A DNA stretch of 64,000 nt from Utricularia gibba (Eukaryota; Streptophyta; Magnoliopsida; Lamiales; Lentibulariaceae): NCBI GenBank assembly GCA_002189035.1, contig NEEC01000015.1, positions 1,054,001 through 1,118,000 of the forward strand. The letters run 5' to 3'. Under the pieces are notes generated by a model. It did not search any database and had not been told where the DNA came from. It saw only the letters and a list, made by a program, of their open reading frames with translations. Positions 4,497 to 25,060 of this stretch are shown in pieces. Position 1 is the stretch's first letter; each line of letters begins with the position of its first letter. A program made the translations under genes and the position numbers.

Positions 4497-5654
4497 TCAG
4501 ATGCTGGGGCGGAGGGGAGACACGTATGCGTACCCCGCTGGAGGAGGGGGTGACGTGTATTTGTACGCCGGCGATGGGGATTTAGAAGGGGCATGTCGAT
4601 GGTGCGGCGGATGTACCTTGTGGACTGGCGGCGGAGGGGATTTGGGGAGTGGAGGTGGTGGTGGGGACTTTGAGACAGGTGGGCGTTCGTGGTGAACTGG
4701 CGGCGGAGGGGATTTTGGAACTGGGGATGGTGGTGGCTTCTTGGACACTGGTGGGCGCTCATGGTGAGCTGGCGGCGGAGGGGATTTGGGAACTGGGGAT
4801 GGTGGAGGCTTCTTTGAGACTGATGGGCGTTCATGATGAGCTGGCGGCGGAGGGGATTTGGGAACTGGGGATGGTGGAGGCTTCTTTGAGACTGGTGGGC
4901 GTTCATGGTGAACTGGCGGGGGCGGGAATTTGTGGACAGGGGAGGGTGGCGGTGGAGACCTGTAAGTGTAAGAGGGCGGAGGTGGGGATTTGTGAACTGG
5001 GTGCGGATGTCTTGGAGGTGATTTTAATGCAGGTGGGTGTTCTTTGTGTGCCGGCGGTGGGGGAGGTGGGAAGACAGGCGGAGGCGGGGATTTGCGTACC
5101 GGCGATGGTGGGGCTTTGGAGACAGGAGGCAACGGCGGAGGCGGTTTATGGACAGGCGCTGGAGGGGGAGATTTGTGAACAGGAGGTGGATGCAATGGAG
5201 GTGACTTCAAAACAGGTGGCTTTTCCTTGTGCACCGGCGGTGGAGGAGATTTCTTAACGGGTGAAGGCGGTCCTGGAGATGGGTGCACAGAAGGTGGAGG
5301 TGCTTTATGTGCATGTGGCGGTGGTTTCACCTTCGGTGGCCTCTCTTTGTGTACTGGCGGCGGCGGTGGCGATTTCGGAATCGGAGCCGGATGCACCGGC
5401 GGCTTCACAGACGGTGGGCGTTCAATGTGCCCCGGTGGAGGAGGAGGAGGAGGATACGCCTTTGCCGGGGCCGGTGGCGGTGGGTGCAGATGCGGCTTCT
5501 TCTGCGGTGGAGCATGTTTGGGTTTCAAGTGATGGCGCGTCGGCGGCGGCGGCGACTGGTAGACATACGGCGGAGCCGAGGAGAGCCCATCATTCGCCAC
5601 CACACTCGTACTCAAGAACAGGAAGACGCAAAACAGCAGACAGTGAGAAGCCAT
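4497..5654 (-). CDS. Extensin-like proline-rich cell wall protein
   Basis: About 385 aa, intronless. I start it at the Met of MASHCLLFCVFLFLSTSVVA, a clean secretory signal peptide; an in-frame Met 11 codons upstream would bury it and lies closer to the TATA box. The mature chain is almost entirely Pro-rich, with repeated SPPPP blocks (the Ser-Hyp4 motif for O-arabinosylation in extensins) alternating with VHK/HHERPPVSK spacers. Tyr is rare, appearing in PPYVYQSPPPP, SYTYRSPPPP and YKYTSPPPP, so only a few Tyr cross-link sites are present. The product should be secreted, hydroxylated and deposited in the wall. High Lys/His could give ionic binding to pectin. It is best called a proline-rich/extensin-like protein rather than a classical cross-linking extensin. 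There is no C-terminal lectin, LRR or Ole e 1 domain. Confidence 0.88.
   Translation of the reverse strand: MASHCLLFCVFLFLSTSVVANDGLSSAPPYVYQSPPPPTRHHLKPKHAPPQKKPHLHPPPPAPAKAYPPPPPPPGHIERPPSVKPPVHPAPIPKSPPPPPVHKERPPKVKPPPHAHKAPPPSVHPSPGPPSPVKKSPPPPVHKEKPPVLKSPPLHPPPVHKSPPPAPVHKPPPPLPPVSKAPPSPVRKSPPPPVFPPPPPPAHKEHPPALKSPPRHPHPVHKSPPPPSYTYRSPPPPSPVHKFPPPPVHHERPPVSKKPPPSPVPKSPPPPAHHERPSVSKKPPPSPVPKSPPPPAHHERPPVSKKPPPSPVPKSPPPPVHHERPPVSKSPPPPPLPKSPPPPVHKVHPPHHRHAPSKSPSPAYKYTSPPPPAGYAYVSPLRPSI
4643..4930 (-). repeat. Tandem 72-bp coding repeat in the extensin-like gene
   Basis: Four consecutive 24-residue units of the form [S/F]PPPP[A/V]HHERPxVSKxPPPxPxPK lie near the C-terminus of the extensin-like protein, with only a few substitutions between units. 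The near-identity at DNA level indicates recent unequal exchange or slippage. The fifth, downstream unit has diverged to a His-rich tail. Confidence 0.8.
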
Positions 5655-16075: not shown

Positions 16076-16735
16076 GCTCCTTCTCACCGTGATTCAGGAT
16101 CCTCCCATCATAGCCATTGTTTGTCTGTTGTCACTCACTCACCATGTACATTCCCTTCCTTTATACTGAAAGCTTTGAGAGAGACAGCACACACAACGTT
16201 TAATGATCATGTTTTGTTGTTTGGTTTTAGCTGAAAATGTTGAAAGCTGTCAATCGATTTGTTTTGTTTTGTTTTTTCATTTATCCGGATTGTTCATGTC
16301 TTAAAAATAAAATAGTTTTTAGATAATTAAATTTCAAATAAATAAATAAATAGAGATCACGTATATATCAATTGAATCTTGTTAAAATGAAATGTTCTCT
16401 GGATTGATTTAGCATATTTGAAGTTTAAGTAAATAATAAACATGAATTATATTAAAAAATATTAAATACAATCTATTATTATTGATTTATAATTTATTAT
16501 GTATTTAATTATTTTATTTTTATTTTCAAATATGAGATTATTTGTTATAATACTTACATTCAAGTCAAATTAATATATAATCCATAATATATTTTTTTAT
16601 TATAGATGGTACTTAAATATAAATCCATTTAATTTTTATGATTTAAATATAATATATGTCCTTGTGTTTTTTTGTGGTTGGGCATCTAAATGAGTATGAG
16701 TAAGCTGGAGCTCTGTTTTTTCAGTTACTAGTCAT
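16076..16735. other. AT-rich spacer
   Basis: This is the 3' flank of the carboxypeptidase gene followed by about 400 bp of very AT-rich DNA. No frames, RNA or repeats are supported. Its right edge is where the similarity to the second receiver-GARP copy begins. Confidence 0.5.
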
Positions 16736-16752
16736 CTATGGGTCTTCTTGTT

Positions 16753-16760
16753 TATATAAG
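16753..16760 (+). promoter_or_regulatory. TATA box of receiver-GARP gene copy 1
   Basis: TATATAAG lies 46 bp before the first ATG, in a context conserved in copy 2 at 18960-18967. The conservation of this element along with the exons suggests both promoters were functional at the time of duplication. Confidence 0.55.
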
Positions 16761-16805
16761 GAGACCTCTGTCCATAAGGCTCTTTTTCCAGGTTTGGATT
16801 ACCCC

Positions 16806-18180
16806 ATGGATGTTCAGCGGTCGGGCGTTTACCAAGGTGCTGTGGAAGGTTTCATCTGGTTATTAAGAGTTCAAGATTATGTTGCTTGTTATGATGGTTA
16901 CGCAGATTCTTTATATTTCTAGTGATGCCGTGTAGTTCGCTGACGGCGGCGTTGGCGTCCCTGCCAGATGAAATCGATCAAGTAGTCGTCTTGGTATCTG
17001 TTGACGGCGAATTCAAGAAAATCGAAAAGGAGGCCGCGCCGGACAATGTTCCCGTTCTAGGTGGGCGCTCGCTCTAATGCCGTTTCCAAGAATCTTTCAT
17101 TATTCCCGATTTGCTGTTCCTATTTTCTTGTTATGCAGTGGTTTTATGTGAGCGGCGTGCGCTTTGTTTCTGCTACGACATACCCATACCAATGCCCGAG
17201 GTGTGCAGCGTGATGAACCAATATGTCAGGGACATCGAAGGCGCACCCTTCAACACACCGACTGGAACAAGTCAGAGACGAAGCTTTGAGAGCACAAACA
17301 GAGAAGTTGAGAGCGTTGATGGTTCATATAAGAAGAAAAAGGAAAGGGTTTCCTGGAACGAGGAACTTCATGGGAAGTTCGTCAAGGCCGTGGAGAAATT
17401 TGGAATCGGTACCAACTCCTTACATTATCTGCGTTGATTCGCCCAGGCTAACCAGAAGTATGCAGTCTGTTGACACGTACGTTTCTTCATTGATTCAGGT
17501 ACTACGCCTAAGAGAATCCTGGAATTTATGGCGGATCCACGGTTAAAACGAAGGCATGTGGCAAGCCATTTGCAGGTGAGGCCTCTTTGCCTCGTCCCTT
17601 GTATCTGATATGCTCTTAGTTTGTTTGTTTCTGTGACTCTTTTGTTCGTTTTTTGACGTCTCAGAAATATCGGAAACAGATAGGATATACTAATGCTTCT
17701 CAATCCTTAGATGATCAGCAACAGGATGCTCCTCCAATCAACCCAGATGAGCCATCACAATCCTTGGATGATCAGCAACAGGATGCTCCTCCAATCAACC
17801 TAAATGAGCCATCACAATCCTTAGATGATCAGCAACAGTATGCTCCTCCAATCAACCTAAATGAGCCATCACAATCCTTAGATGATCAGCAACAGTATGC
17901 TCCTCCAATCAACCTAAATGAGCCATCACAATCCTTGGATGATCAGCAACAGGATGCTCCTCCAATCAACCCAGATGAGCAACCACAATCCTTGGATGAT
18001 CAGCAACAGGATGCTCCTCCAATCAACCCAGATGAGCGATCGCAATCCTTAGATGATCAGCAACAGGATGCTCCTCCAATCAACCTAAATGAGCCATCAC
18101 AATGCTTAGATGATCAGCAACAGGATGCTCTTTCAATCGACCCAGATGAGCCATCACAATCCTCTGATGATGAAGAATGA
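16806..18180 (+). CDS. B-type response-regulator-like protein, degenerate receiver plus GARP domain, copy 1
   Basis: Model of five exons: 16806-16836, 16923-17060, 17139-17408, 17499-17575, 17665-18180, about 343 aa, starting MDVQRSGVYQ. An alternative start is ATG 16925. The N-terminal ~90 residues align in order with a type-B ARR receiver (ALASLPDEIDQVVVLVSV, then DGEFKKIE, then VPVL, then PIPMPEVCSVMNQYVR), but the stretch that normally holds the phospho-accepting Asp (DVHMPDM) is missing and the Lys-Pro motif is lost. A GARP/B-motif follows: RVSWNEELHGKFVKAVEKFG joined across an intron to TTPKRILEFMADPRLKRRHV and SHLQKYR. The C-terminus is an array of 19-residue repeats and an acidic SSDDEE end. 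It probably binds DNA as a phosphorylation-independent regulator. Normal ARR-B proteins are 550-700 aa, so this is a short derivative. Confidence 0.75.
17698..18177 (+). repeat. 57-bp coding minisatellite (8.4 units) in receiver-GARP copy 1
   Basis: Eight full units plus a partial ninth encode the consensus SQSLDDQQQDAPPINPDEP. Units differ at a few sites (NPDEP versus NLNEP, D versus Y after QQQ), and two adjacent units are identical. The period is exactly 19 codons, so the number of units can change without a frameshift. The product is acidic and Gln/Pro-rich, a composition common in transcriptional activation domains. Confidence 0.95.
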
Positions 18181-18435
18181 ACTGCTACTCGAAACAGCAA
18201 GGTTTAGCCGAATCCTTTCGAGCCGGGTTTGTATATCTCCTCAAATCAGTCGGATGAGGGATTTCAAAGCAATGACTCGGGAGTGTCGGGGTACCTTTTT
18301 GGCTTGTTTCCGGTGTTCCCCCTCCAGCGTAAACGTTTCAGTTCAAGGTAGGCAGCATTTTCTCGAGATCCCCTCCCCTTTCATGCGCCGCCTCCAAATA
18401 AATAACACCCACGTTGGATTTCATCGAATCTTCGT

Positions 18436-18941
18436 GCTGCCACTAATTTATTGCTCGTGATCTCGAAATGGAAAAGCAGAAGAACCCAGAAAGGCATTCG
18501 ATTACAGAGGCGAGCTTTTCATTGACGGGCGCCATGAATGATTCTAAGCACACCTCAATTTCAAATACAAAATAATTAAATTAAATCGATTATTATTAAT
18601 TTATAATTTCTTATATAATTAATTACGATGATTTAAATATTCAACTTTAAATCAAACTAATATTTGATTCAACTAAAACTTAATTTTTTGTAATAATAAA
18701 TAATACTTAAAATATAAATCGTTCTAATTCTTATCGTATAAATATAATATATTTCATTTTTTTTAACTTTAATTCAGGTGAAACGGTAACATTCCAACCG
18801 ACAAATATGGGATTTTGTTCATGCTTGAGTAACCTAGATTCAGAGTCTTCACGAAACTGATTTTTACAAACAAAAAGTTTTGAATACACAAAAGCGTTCT
18901 TGTTCTTCTACTTCTCTTCCCTCGGAATCTGAATTCTCCAA
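18436..18941. other. Spacer between tandem copies
   Basis: AT-rich DNA with no gene-like frame. It is not clearly shared with the flank of copy 2, so the duplication junction should lie near its edges. Confidence 0.5.
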
Positions 18942-18959
18942 CATATGGGTCTTCTTGTT

Positions 18960-18967
18960 TATATAAG
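18960..18967 (+). promoter_or_regulatory. TATA box of receiver-GARP gene copy 2
   Basis: TATATAAG lies 46 bp before the copy 2 ATG, at the same distance and context as in copy 1. Confidence 0.5.
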
Positions 18968-19012
18968 GAGTCCTCCATCCATAAGGCTCTTTTTCCAGGT
19001 TTGGATAACCCC

Positions 19013-19963
19013 ATGGATGTTCTGCGGTCGGGCGTTTACCAAGGTGCTGTGGAAGGTTTCATCTGTTTATTAAGAGTTCAAGATTATGTTGCTTGTTTTG
19101 ATGGTTACGCAGGTTCTTTATATTTCTAGTGATGCCGTGTAGTTCGCTGACGGCGGCGTTGGCGTCCCTGCGTGATGAAATCGATCAAGTAATCGTGTTG
19201 CTATCTGTTGACGGCGAATTCAAGAAAATCGAAAAGGAGGCTGCGCCGGACAATGTTCCCGTTCTAGGTGGGTGCTCGCTCTAATGCCGTTTCCAAGAAT
19301 CTTTCATTATTCCCGATTTGCTGTTCCTATTTTCTTGTTATGCAGTGGTTGTAGGTCAGCGGCGTGCGCTTTGTTTCTGCTACGATATAGGCTTACCAAT
19401 GCCCGAGTTGTGCAGCGTGATGAACCAATATATCAGGGAGGAGAAAACGGGGGACATCGAAGGCGCACCCTCCAACCCACCGACTGGAACAAGTCAGAGA
19501 CGAAGCTTTGAGAGCACAAACAGAGAAGTTGAGAGCGTTGATGGTTCACATAAGAAGAAAAGGCTTTTCTGGAACGAGGAACTTCATGGGAAGTTCGTCA
19601 AAGCCGTGGAGAAACTTGGAATCGGTACCAAATCCTTACATTATCTGCGTAGATTCGCCCAGGCTTACCGAAAATATGCAGTCCATTGAAACGTACGTTT
19701 CTTCATTGATTTAGGTACTACGCCTAAGAAAATCCTGGAATTTATGGCGGATCCACGGGTAAAACGAAGGCAAGTGGCAAGCCATTTGCAGGTGAGGCCT
19801 CTTTGCCTCATCCCTTGTATCTGATATGCTCTGAGTTTGTTTCTGTGACTCTTTTGGTCGTTTTTTGACGTCTCAGACATATCGGAAACAGATAGGATAC
19901 ACTACTGCTTCACAATCCTTAGATGGATCAACAACAGAATGCTCCTCCAATCAACCCATATGA
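19013..19963 (+). CDS. B-type response-regulator-like protein, copy 2, frameshifted tail
   Basis: Five exons parallel to copy 1: 19013-19043, 19130-19267, 19346-19624, 19715-19791, 19877-19963, about 203 aa. The degenerate receiver region and GARP domain (RLFWNEELHGKFVKAVEKLG, then TTPKKILEFMADPRVKRRQV) are intact. The GARP end reads HLQTYR instead of HLQKYR, changing a usually conserved Lys. In the last exon a single extra G (TTAGATGGATCA here, TTAGATGATCA in copy 1) shifts the frame, so the protein ends GSTTECSSNQPI and lacks the acidic repeat tail. The old frame remains readable downstream to an equivalent end at about 19994. It may be a DNA-binding-only variant that competes with copy 1, or an early pseudogene. 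Confidence 0.68.
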
Positions 19964-20290
19964 GCCATCACAATTCTTCGATGATGAAGAATGAACTGCT
20001 ACTCGAATCAGCAAGGTTGAGCCGAATCCTTTCGAGCCGGGTTTGTATATCTCCTCAAATCAGTTGGTGCATGCATGATGAGGGTTTTCAAAGCAATGAC
20101 TCTGAGGATTATCAGGGCACCTTTCTGGCTTGTTTCTGCTGTTCCCCCTGTGAGGAAGGCTCCAGTGTAAACGTTTCAGTTCAGGGTAGGCAGCATTTTT
20201 TCCCTTCTGTTGAGCTTCTGGGCAACTCCTTTGGTTACAAAAAGCACTCATTCGTTGAATCCCAACACCCACGTTGAATCTCCCATCCTT

Positions 20291-21388: not shown

Positions 21389-23200
21389 TCCCGATTTGCG
21401 GGCTCAACTCACCATCCTCATCGTCACCGTATTTTTATGTATGGCCTTCATTTCCTACTCCTTTTCTTCTTCGATCTCCTTAAGGTTCCCTTCCTCCAAC
21501 AGCGGAGCAAAGGGGACGGCTGCCGCGGCTAGAATAGCGGTGTGTCTTGTCGGGGGAGTGCGGAGATTCGAACTGACGGGGCCGTCGATCGTCGATCGCC
21601 TCCTCCGCGTTTATCCGAATACCGATCTTTTTCTTCACTCTCCTTTGGATTCCAATTCGTACAAGCTACTTTTACTTAACGAAGCGCCGGAGATTGCCGC
21701 GGTGAAGATATTTAAGCAGCAGCCGTTACTCGAAACGCCGGCTGCCGGCCGAGTTCTCACCTCCGGCGGCTCGCCTAACGGTGTTCAGGTGATCTTCTGA
21801 TACCCTCATCACATGAAATATGTGCCTTTTAGATTTTTTTTAAAAAATTCCTGAATAATGTTATGAAATTAAAAGTGAATTTTTATCTCTCATTGTCATT
21901 TTCTTTCACATATATTAAAATAAAAAAATTAAAAGATGATCTAATTTCTAAATCAATTCCTTTTTTATCTCACAAGCATGTGTCAACTTTTATCAGTTGA
22001 CTGATTTGATACTTTAACTACTACCCTAAGTGTAAGAGACGGTTTAGATCATCTTCAAAAAAATACGATATAAAATAATAGATGTATTTTGCTACAAAAT
22101 AATAAATTAGTTTGCATTAATATATTAATTGTGTCTATATAAAAAATTTAGATAAAATAAGGAAAATACATAAAATTAATCGGAAAAGAGAGAAAACCCC
22201 CAAAAAAACCCTAGTATCGTAAAACTAGAGGAAGATGAAATATGGCAAGAAAAATTGAATGAAAGGATAAAGTAAATTCGAGAGGCATTATCGGGACTTA
22301 TTTTATTAATATACAGAATAATCTTTTGTATTCAAATATTAATTTTTCATTTTAAAAATAATTATATTCTATAAAACTGTGATTTGACTGGCACTGGGAT
22401 TGCAGGGCTTGTTGCAGTACTTCAGCCTGGTGGAAGGGTGTTTAACGATGATCAAGGCTCACCAGGAAAAGCACAACTTCACCTACGATTGGATAATTCG
22501 AACTCGGGTCGACGGGTACTGGTCGGAGCCATTAGAGATCCAAAGCTTCGATCGCGGCAAGTACACGGTTCCGATCGGCTCCTCTTACGGCGGCTTGAAT
22601 GACCGGTTTGGTGCAGGGGACTACAACACCTCGCTGATTGCCTTGTCCCGGCTGTCTTCCATTCCTGAACTTGATGCCACCGGTGTGACGGGGCTCAACT
22701 CCGAGGGTGCTTTCAAGGCCCAGCTCACCATCCATAAGGTTCAGTTTGCGACGGCAAGTGTTCCCTTCTGTATCGTATCAGATCGGAAGTATGAGTTCCC
22801 GCCGTCGGAATACGGGGTGCCGGTGGTCTCCATGTCGACCCACGGTCCACTTAGTGGCGCCAAATGCCGGCCGTGCAGCGCCGCGTGCGCAGATGATCCA
22901 TGCGTCAGGCGTGTGATGGGTGGGTTGCACGAGTGGTGGAGCTGGACGGAATGGCGTTCGAATAAGCTTGAGCTCTGTGATGCGCATGGCGAGTGGGAGC
23001 AGGGGTGGGAGACGCTGTTCGATAGGGTGGCGGGGGGGCGATATTCGTCCATTAGAAAAAGGTTTTGGGCTTTGGATATGGGCCGATGCATCCAAGAATT
23101 TGAGAAAATGAGAAAGAGATCGGGCTACTGGGATGGGCCCACTGCTCAGGAAATTTGCCAATTGGGCCTTGAGACGCGGTCACACCTGGGGCCCACATGA
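21360..23200 (+). CDS. DUF7796-type type II membrane protein
   Basis: Two exons, 21360-21788 and 22406-23200, giving 407 aa. A single membrane helix (LTILIVTVFLCMAFISYSF, ~17-36) follows a short basic N-terminus, so this should be a type II Golgi or ER membrane protein. The lumenal part has RIAVCLVGGVRRFELTGPSI, a VYPNTDLFLHSP strand, GLLQYFSLVEGCLTMIKAHQ, YDWIIRTRVDGYW and GGLNDRFGAGDYN, a pattern reminiscent of a nucleotide-sugar-binding fold; the Cys-rich stretch CRPCSAACADDPCVRR and the LELCDAHGEWEQGWETLFDR block follow. It matches the Arabidopsis At2g04280/At4g12700 family, whose activity I do not know. A glycosyltransferase-like role is inference only. Start chosen as MMRTPA; see the upstream ORF for an alternative. 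Confidence 0.82.
21789..22405 (+). other. Intron of the DUF7796 gene
   Basis: 617-bp GT-AG intron, AT-rich and stop-dense in all frames, with nothing recognisable inside. Confidence 0.7.
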
Positions 23201-25060
23201 TTCCCCTAAACCACGTACACACTACTTTAGGTTTGACTAACTTTTTTTTTTTTTCTAGAAGGAAGTAAATTTAAAAAAATTAATATTTTTGTTGAAAAAA
23301 GTGATTTGGAAAAAAATAAAAATGTTACAATTTTTTTTAAATCACTCTTCTTTGCTTCTTTGCCCCTCCTTTCCTCATAGTCGAGGGCTGTGCTTGTGAA
23401 GTGTTTCTTTGTCCCCTCAATGCCTTTTAAACCCTCTTGCAAGTAGATCGTATTGGCCTCTTATCAAGGTTATAGGCGAGAGTTGTGCTTGTGGGTGTTT
23501 CTCTGACCCCCTAATGCCTGTAAAACCCTCTTGCAACTAGTTCATATTGGCCTCTCATGAGGCTTATAATCGAGGGTTGTGCTTGTGGGTATTTCTTCCC
23601 CCCCCCCCCCCCTAAATGACTTCAAACCCAGTTGCGACTTGTTCATATTGGCTTCTCATCAGGCTTGATATTTAGGGGTGTGACTCGACTTCTTGTCTGG
23701 CTACTCACATGTATTTGCCTACACGCTGTCAGGGTCGCCTCCCAGATCTTCGCCTAGACACATCTACATGAAAAGATGTTAGAACGCATACTGACAAGAC
23801 AGAATCGCAAGCTCAGGACATGATCGCCACCTCACGGGGTTTTCTTGGTTTCCAAACTCTCATCAAATAGAAACACTGCCAAGCCCTACGCAGCATGCGC
23901 TGGTTTTCTTGGTTTCCAACTCAACGCAATCGCACATGCAGCCCCTTCGAAACCCGAATTCTGTCTGCACTTCCGCAAGCATCCAAACCAACCTAGTCAA
24001 CCAGTTTTATCAAGAACATTCTAGTTAGCGCTGTCCGTTTGTGCATTTATTAAGGATGTGCTACATTTCAACCATGAAAAATGAATGCGATGTTGAATTC
24101 ATTCATAATCTTCTCAATCGTGGTGCCTTCATGGCCACACTCTACAGTCGTGTATGATCTTCCCAAGCATATCGACTGGAAGGTTCCAAGATCTGCTGAA
24201 TCCACCAAAAAAGCAAGAAACGGGGGTCGTCATCATCAGAGATTGGGATAGAGCAACCACCCGCATCAAGTTGATGATCGAAAGTGATGATGGGGGTGTG
24301 AATTAATTAATTCTTGGAAGATTAGCAGAATGGAATAACCGATGATGCGCCAGCCCAAGGATCCGGACTTGGGATCATGTAATCGGAGTCGACAGCTACG
24401 CCACGACGCTGAACTCTCCTTTGTAATTAAGACGTGGGCCGAGCGCCCTTGACAATTCTCACTCACACGGACCAATAAAAAATAGGTGGAGTTTGGGGGT
24501 CGAATTTAATTTATAATCAATATAAATAATTTAAATCTTAAATTTTAAAATTACCTCATATGCTCCTAAACTTATTTTTTAAAATAGTTTGTTCTCAAAT
24601 TTATGAAATTACTTATCTAATTACTCATGTTATCAAAACTAATCAATTTTGATATTAGCGTTATTATAATGATATATCATACATAATGTAAACGTAATAT
24701 AATTATCGTTACTTGGAATTATATAATTTGCGAATGTGATATAACACCAACAAAAATATCATTTCATTTGCAAAACTCCATACACAATGCAAAAGGCCCT
24801 AGATTAAAAATCATCAAATGATCCAAATTGATTTTGGATTAAAAATCATTGTGAGGTAGGGGATTGAAATTAATTAAGTTTGGCATTGCCACCCACACGT
24901 GGTGTCGATGGGGCCCAGTAAATTCTTTTTTTGCCCTAAAAAACTCGAATTTATGTTTGAGTTCCCTCGCCACGTAATCCAAAGCTGTTAATTTATTCGT
25001 GGATCCGGCCCCTACAGTCCACTTGTATGCGCCACTAATGGGCCCCACGAAGCACAGTAC
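23201..25060. other. Intergenic spacer
   Basis: Contains the 94-bp tandem repeat described separately and otherwise unremarkable DNA. Small frames on both strands near 24266-24475 and 24839-25204 carry no recognised domain. The right end is the DUF241 gene promoter. Confidence 0.5.
23380..23674 (+). repeat. Degenerate tandem repeat, three units of about 95 bp
   Basis: Units start near 23380, 23475 and 23569. Each contains tcgagggYtgtgcttgtg, a pyrimidine stretch, a taaaccctcttgca word and atattggcctctcat. They differ by about 15-20 percent. The third has a run of 15 C at 23598-23612. There is no coding frame across them. Confidence 0.8.

Follow-up and report, generated by a model that had tools for sequence, protein, structure and literature searches.

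The canonical type-B response regulators ARR1, ARR2, ARR10 and ARR12 carry a receiver followed by a GARP DNA-binding domain. Many type-B regulators of legumes lack the phospho-accepting Asp and have spread through tandem duplication; this Asp is mostly replaced by Glu or Asn, as in MtRRB proteins, some C-terminal regions are short, and some members, such as MtRR31 and MtRR32, consist of the receiver only (PMC6518804). In Arabidopsis, the receivers of ARR18 and ARR23 are truncated (PMC3866579). Furthermore, ARR1-deltaDDK, an engineered ARR1 from which the receiver was deleted, shows constitutive activity (PMC5913131), and the residues through which ARR2 is predicted to contact DNA, including the Lys of SHLQKYR, have been described (PMC10454580). 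A search of one literature collection for type-B regulators in Utricularia or Lentibulariaceae returned no paper. In view of the legume and Arabidopsis forms, a first, sequence-only reading of the locus reported here, which saw in it a little-described gene family, had put the case too strongly.

The window, i.e. the whole stretch of 64,000 nucleotides of Utricularia gibba DNA that was analysed (G000:C412:1054001-1118000), contains two direct copies at positions 16737-17772 and 18944-19985, which are 92% identical across 1052 columns. The presence of the gene pair is confirmed: as had been claimed, two truncated type-B response-regulator genes are arranged head to tail (Table 1). When spliced at GT-AG sites, copy 1 is open over 343 aa; copy 2 gives a protein of 203 aa, with exons 1-4 open and exon 5 frameshifted. 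As had been announced, the proteins are shortened. Within exons 1-4, the copies differ by indels of 15 and 6 nt, both divisible by three. In each copy a TATATAA element, TATA-box-like and with a putative promoter role, lies about 50 nt upstream of the ATG, and the surrounding 70 nt are 93% identical between the copies.

Table 1. Features of the two genes, in window positions.
Feature	Positions	Strand	Remarks
TATA-box-like TATATAA, copy 1	16753..16759	+	sequence only
Copy 1 exon 1	16806..16836	+	only 10 codons, MDVQRSGVYQ; 3' end at the conserved type-B intron site, phase 1
Copy 1 exon 2	16923..17060	+	mid-receiver; 46 codons vs 51 in canonical genes; phospho-Asp block absent
Copy 1 exon 3	17139..17408	+	degenerate receiver end (no Lys-Pro), linker, first half of GARP
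Copy 1 exon 4	17499..17575	+	GARP recognition part, TPKRILEFM...VASHLQ
Copy 1 exon 5	17665..18180	+	KYRKQ, then in-frame 19-aa repeats (SQSLDDQQQDAPPINPDEP); stop TGA
57-nt tandem repeat array, copy 1 exon 5	17701..18171	+	8.3 copies
TATA-box-like TATATAA, copy 2	18960..18966	+	assigned from the letters alone
Copy 2 exon 1	19013..19043	+	MDVLRSGVYQ
Copy 2 exon 2	19130..19267	+	degenerate receiver without phospho-Asp block
Copy 2 exon 3	19346..19624	+	receiver end, linker, first half of GARP
Copy 2 exon 4	19715..19791	+	GARP recognition part
Copy 2 exon 5	19877..19963	+	out of the copy 1 frame past ~19925; premature stop; contact Lys of SHLQKYR replaced by Thr

The flanks 5' of the two copies (16453-16669 and 18566-18764) were just 69% alike, as compared with 92-95% for the transcribed tract. 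Because of this difference, gene conversion may have homogenised the transcribed tract of the pair. Such an event would make the comparison of the two copies a recent one, yet it should not raise dN/dS to 1.

The descent of the pair was examined with an intron reference set from the same genome, made up of the canonical type-B genes L039, L040, L047 and L060-L066 and of the divergent gene L067. In this set, the first intron follows ...xYQ (or YK, YE), the second LPVI and the fourth SHLQ, and the third precedes the PKKIL block; the phases, in order, are 1, 1, 1 and 0. Both window genes are interrupted at the same four sites and in the same phases, with one codon less at the third.

The receiver check by profile HMM, which had been proposed with the sequence-only reading, gave a mixed answer. 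Neither window protein matched Pfam PF00072, and a genome-wide PF00072 scan was without match at the locus. With a profile derived from the genome's own receivers, the two proteins obtained weak scores of 5.5 and 9.3 bits, each equalled by few of 2000 shuffles, and the paralog L022 obtained a clear score of 13.2 bits, the best of its 2000 shuffles being at most 6.1 bits. A free receiver-profile search is too weak to decide the matter for copies 1 and 2, and homology was judged through the intron positions and an exon-anchored alignment. Anchored at the exon ends, exon 2 aligned with canonical exon 2 with z values of 6.2 for copy 1, 6.8 for copy 2 and 7.1 for L022, scores which none of 4000 shuffles reached in any of the three cases. 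At the start of exon 3 the anchored signal was weaker for the window copies (15 and 82 of 4000 shuffles reached the score); L022 retains KPV there, and its score was reached by none of 4000. By their introns, their GARP domain and the receiver homology of exon 2, the window genes are members of the type-B response-regulator family by descent, as had been supposed.

The optimal alignment of exon 2 leaves a gap of 5-6 residues over DVNMPD, the block of the phospho-accepting Asp, and the degenerate receiver end in exon 3 is without the Lys of the Lys-Pro. Both losses had been recognised at the outset, but the real loss is larger: the acidic Asp pair has disappeared too, together with strand 1 and helix 1. 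Exon 1 of canonical genes codes for several tens of residues, VLVVDDD among them, as against 10 in the window genes, and no VLVVDDD-like segment was found in the in-frame sequence 5' of the copy 1 start (16704-16805). Since the phospho-Asp block is missing within a single continuous exon, no intron hides it. All of the DD-D-K catalytic residues, by which an authentic, phosphorelay-competent type-B receiver is recognised, are absent. The window genes thus fall under the definition of the non-canonical RRBs, i.e. type-B kin without the phospho-Asp (PMC6518804). Given the conserved DD-D-K mechanism, we infer that a phosphorelay-competent receiver cannot be encoded.

The DNA-binding half is much better recognised. 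Both window proteins matched TIGR01557 (myb_SHAQKYF), with E values of 2e-19 and 7e-18, and their best relatives of solved structure were ARR1 and ARR10, the likeness being confined to the GARP domain. In copy 1 the core GARP residues survive (W, SHLQKYR, PKxILxxM); when compared with ARR2, the W and the S-H-Q-K-R contacts are retained, and the equivalents of I269 and R272 are substituted. In copy 2, the residue equivalent to K266, the predicted DNA-contact Lys of SHLQKYR, reads as Thr. The long C-terminal activation region (200-500 residues), another mark of authentic type-B regulators, is absent from both copies: the C-terminus of copy 1 consists of about 160 residues of 19-aa repeats encoded by the 57-nt array, and that of copy 2 of about 25 residues, the 57-nt repeats being nearly absent.

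Whole-genome searches of the 100-Mb assembly found only four copies, namely the window pair, L021 (contig C304) and L022 (C412:1217.6-1218.3 kb). In L021, exons 3 and 4 carry at least two frameshifts of one base each. In L022, some 0.7 kb of DNA interrupts exon 3, and a 47-nt remnant of the exon lies beyond the insert. Two of the four copies are therefore disrupted, one by frameshifts and the other by inserted DNA; the one-base frameshifts in L021 and in copy 2 could be assembly errors. L021 also carries a 57-nt coding repeat array (1190-1926), with 12.6 copies against 8.3 in copy 1. The insert of L022 is partly organelle-like, this part being 91% identical to contig C516 (L077/L078). This contig measures 172 kb, and the match to the insert is repeated in it at a distance of 150,029 nt, the pattern expected of a circular organelle genome that has not been closed; its size suggests a plastid origin.

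The dN/dS ratio of the tandem pair was 0.96, with a 95% interval (0.40-2.64) that is wide owing to few synonymous changes, and that obtained against L021 was 1.09 (0.66-1.86). A value of 0.2 was rejected in both comparisons (P 7e-5 and 6e-14, respectively), and the same method gave 0.09-0.10 for three canonical type-B pairs. For the GARP part of the tandem pair alone, the ratio was 0.85. At 0.96 and 1.09, these ratios give no sign of purifying selection on the window proteins. In addition, introns 1, 2 and 4 are conserved about as well as the exons and intron 3 somewhat less, so that overall the introns have changed no faster than the exons. The sequence-only reading had pictured a transcription factor freed from the phosphorelay which had kept its DNA binding. 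The GARP domain is indeed retained, but the picture of a maintained factor finds no support in the dN/dS near 1, the conservation of the introns, the disruption of two of the four copies and the Lys to Thr change of copy 2.

Because the genes change as freely as non-coding DNA, a relic is more likely than a new type of regulator, and we consider that the pair is probably a tandemly duplicated relic, in decay, of a type-B cytokinin response regulator. In its ancestor the receiver would have lost its function; a coding start now placed late, at the end of exon 1, would have removed strand 1, the acidic Asp pair and helix 1, about five codons of exon 2 with the phospho-accepting Asp would have been deleted, and the Lys-Pro would have decayed, the GARP domain being presumably the part retained longest. 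The copies would now drift under little or no constraint at the protein level, half of those in the genome being already broken, and the pair most likely does little. If copy 1 is transcribed, its protein would stand outside the phosphorelay, unphosphorylated in vivo, with a GARP domain partly intact and no activation region of the usual length. Such a course of losses, with decay as the main fate, has to be weighed against the open frame of copy 1 over 343 codons with every splice site intact, the survival of the GARP core residues, and the in-exon indels between the copies, which keep to multiples of three in exons 1-4.

A rival explanation is a functional GARP factor independent of the phosphorelay: copy 1, perhaps together with copy 2, would bind the targets of type-B regulators with no need of cytokinin input, and dN/dS near 1 would result from rapid or positive selection and not from drift. 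As ARR1 is unmasked when its receiver is removed, and as the window genes have no long activation region, such a protein would activate weakly and constitutively, or else compete with the canonical type-B regulators. The GARP match (2e-19), the open frame and splice sites of copy 1, its retained W and S-H-Q-K-R contacts (PMC10454580) and the constitutive activity of ARR1-deltaDDK (PMC5913131) all speak for it. However, even the GARP part of the pair evolves at a ratio of 0.85, the introns are conserved about like the exons, half of the four copies are broken, and the equivalents of I269 and R272 (copy 1) and of K266 (copy 2) are changed; we regard this explanation as possible, though rather unlikely. 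In copy 1, if transcribed, DNA would be bound through the GARP domain without hormone control, as by receiver-deleted ARR1; lacking the long activation region, however, the protein would compete more than activate. A narrower proposal, that of a lineage-specific, fast-evolving, phosphorelay-free GARP factor which has its own C-terminal domain made of repeats and occupies cytokinin-response sites in competition with canonical type-B regulators, seems to us distinctly improbable.

Two other explanations concern the gene model itself. As the model was drawn from genomic sequence, unusual splicing is conceivable, and the true transcript might use other exons and contain a normal receiver. Against this, the Asp block is missing inside a continuous exon, the stretch at 16704-16805 offers no first strand, and the genome scan found no receiver match at the locus; we give this very little credence. 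Slightly less still is given to an N-terminal segment unrelated to the receiver, which a GARP gene would have gained as foreign exons. The missing PF00072 match and the low profile scores of copies 1 and 2 would fit such an origin, but introns 1 and 2 have the positions and phases of canonical receivers, the anchored exon 2 stands at z 6-7, and L022 both retains KPV and outscores all its receiver-profile shuffles. By the intron and alignment tests, a non-receiver N-terminus is largely refuted.

In the pair, one small plant genome shows how the input module of a hormone-signalling transcription factor can be lost from a gene whose intron skeleton and DNA-binding domain can still be recognised. 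As a probable relic, the pair chiefly helps to correct annotation, domain searches detecting only its Myb/GARP domain; were it functional, the receiver-deleted ARR1 would have in it a natural counterpart. Elsewhere in the window, a 72-nt tandem repeat (4620-4949, 4.6 copies) is possibly coding, since its period is divisible by three, and a 94-nt tandem repeat (23377-23597, 2.3 copies) lies directly 3' of an open frame of 270 aa (22388-23200).

When compared with canonical type-B regulators, the window genes share the order of receiver and GARP domain and the GARP core, and with those of their own genome all four intron positions and phases. They differ in lacking the DD pair, the phospho-Asp, the Lys and the long activation region, in an exon 1 of 10 codons, and in a dN/dS near 1 instead of 0.1. 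Within the genome, L067 (G000:C375:2243 kb, 900-2500) also has an altered receiver, in which the phospho-Asp is replaced by Asn (VIANVQ) and DD by DH, and its GARP domain, with CFPKEILEKMNVPGLTRMQVASHLQ, has in common with the window genes the start WxEELHxKFVxA. Unlike theirs, its receiver is of full length (PF00072, 28.0 bits) and keeps the Lys-Pro. In a GARP tree the window genes joined L067 with weak support (60/24) and on long branches, a placement that is unreliable. ARR1-deltaDDK resembles them in having a GARP domain without a working receiver, but it retains the activation region. ARR18 and ARR23, of another lineage, are likewise type-B regulators with a shortened receiver, a likeness drawn from their published description. 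The legume non-canonical RRBs share with the pair type-B descent, the lack of the phospho-Asp, tandem expansion and, for some, a short C-terminal region, and L022 resembles their receiver-only forms. In legumes the phospho-Asp is mostly substituted, whereas in the window genes its block is deleted and the receiver truncated; they are a further, more eroded member of the accepted Asp-less type-B class.
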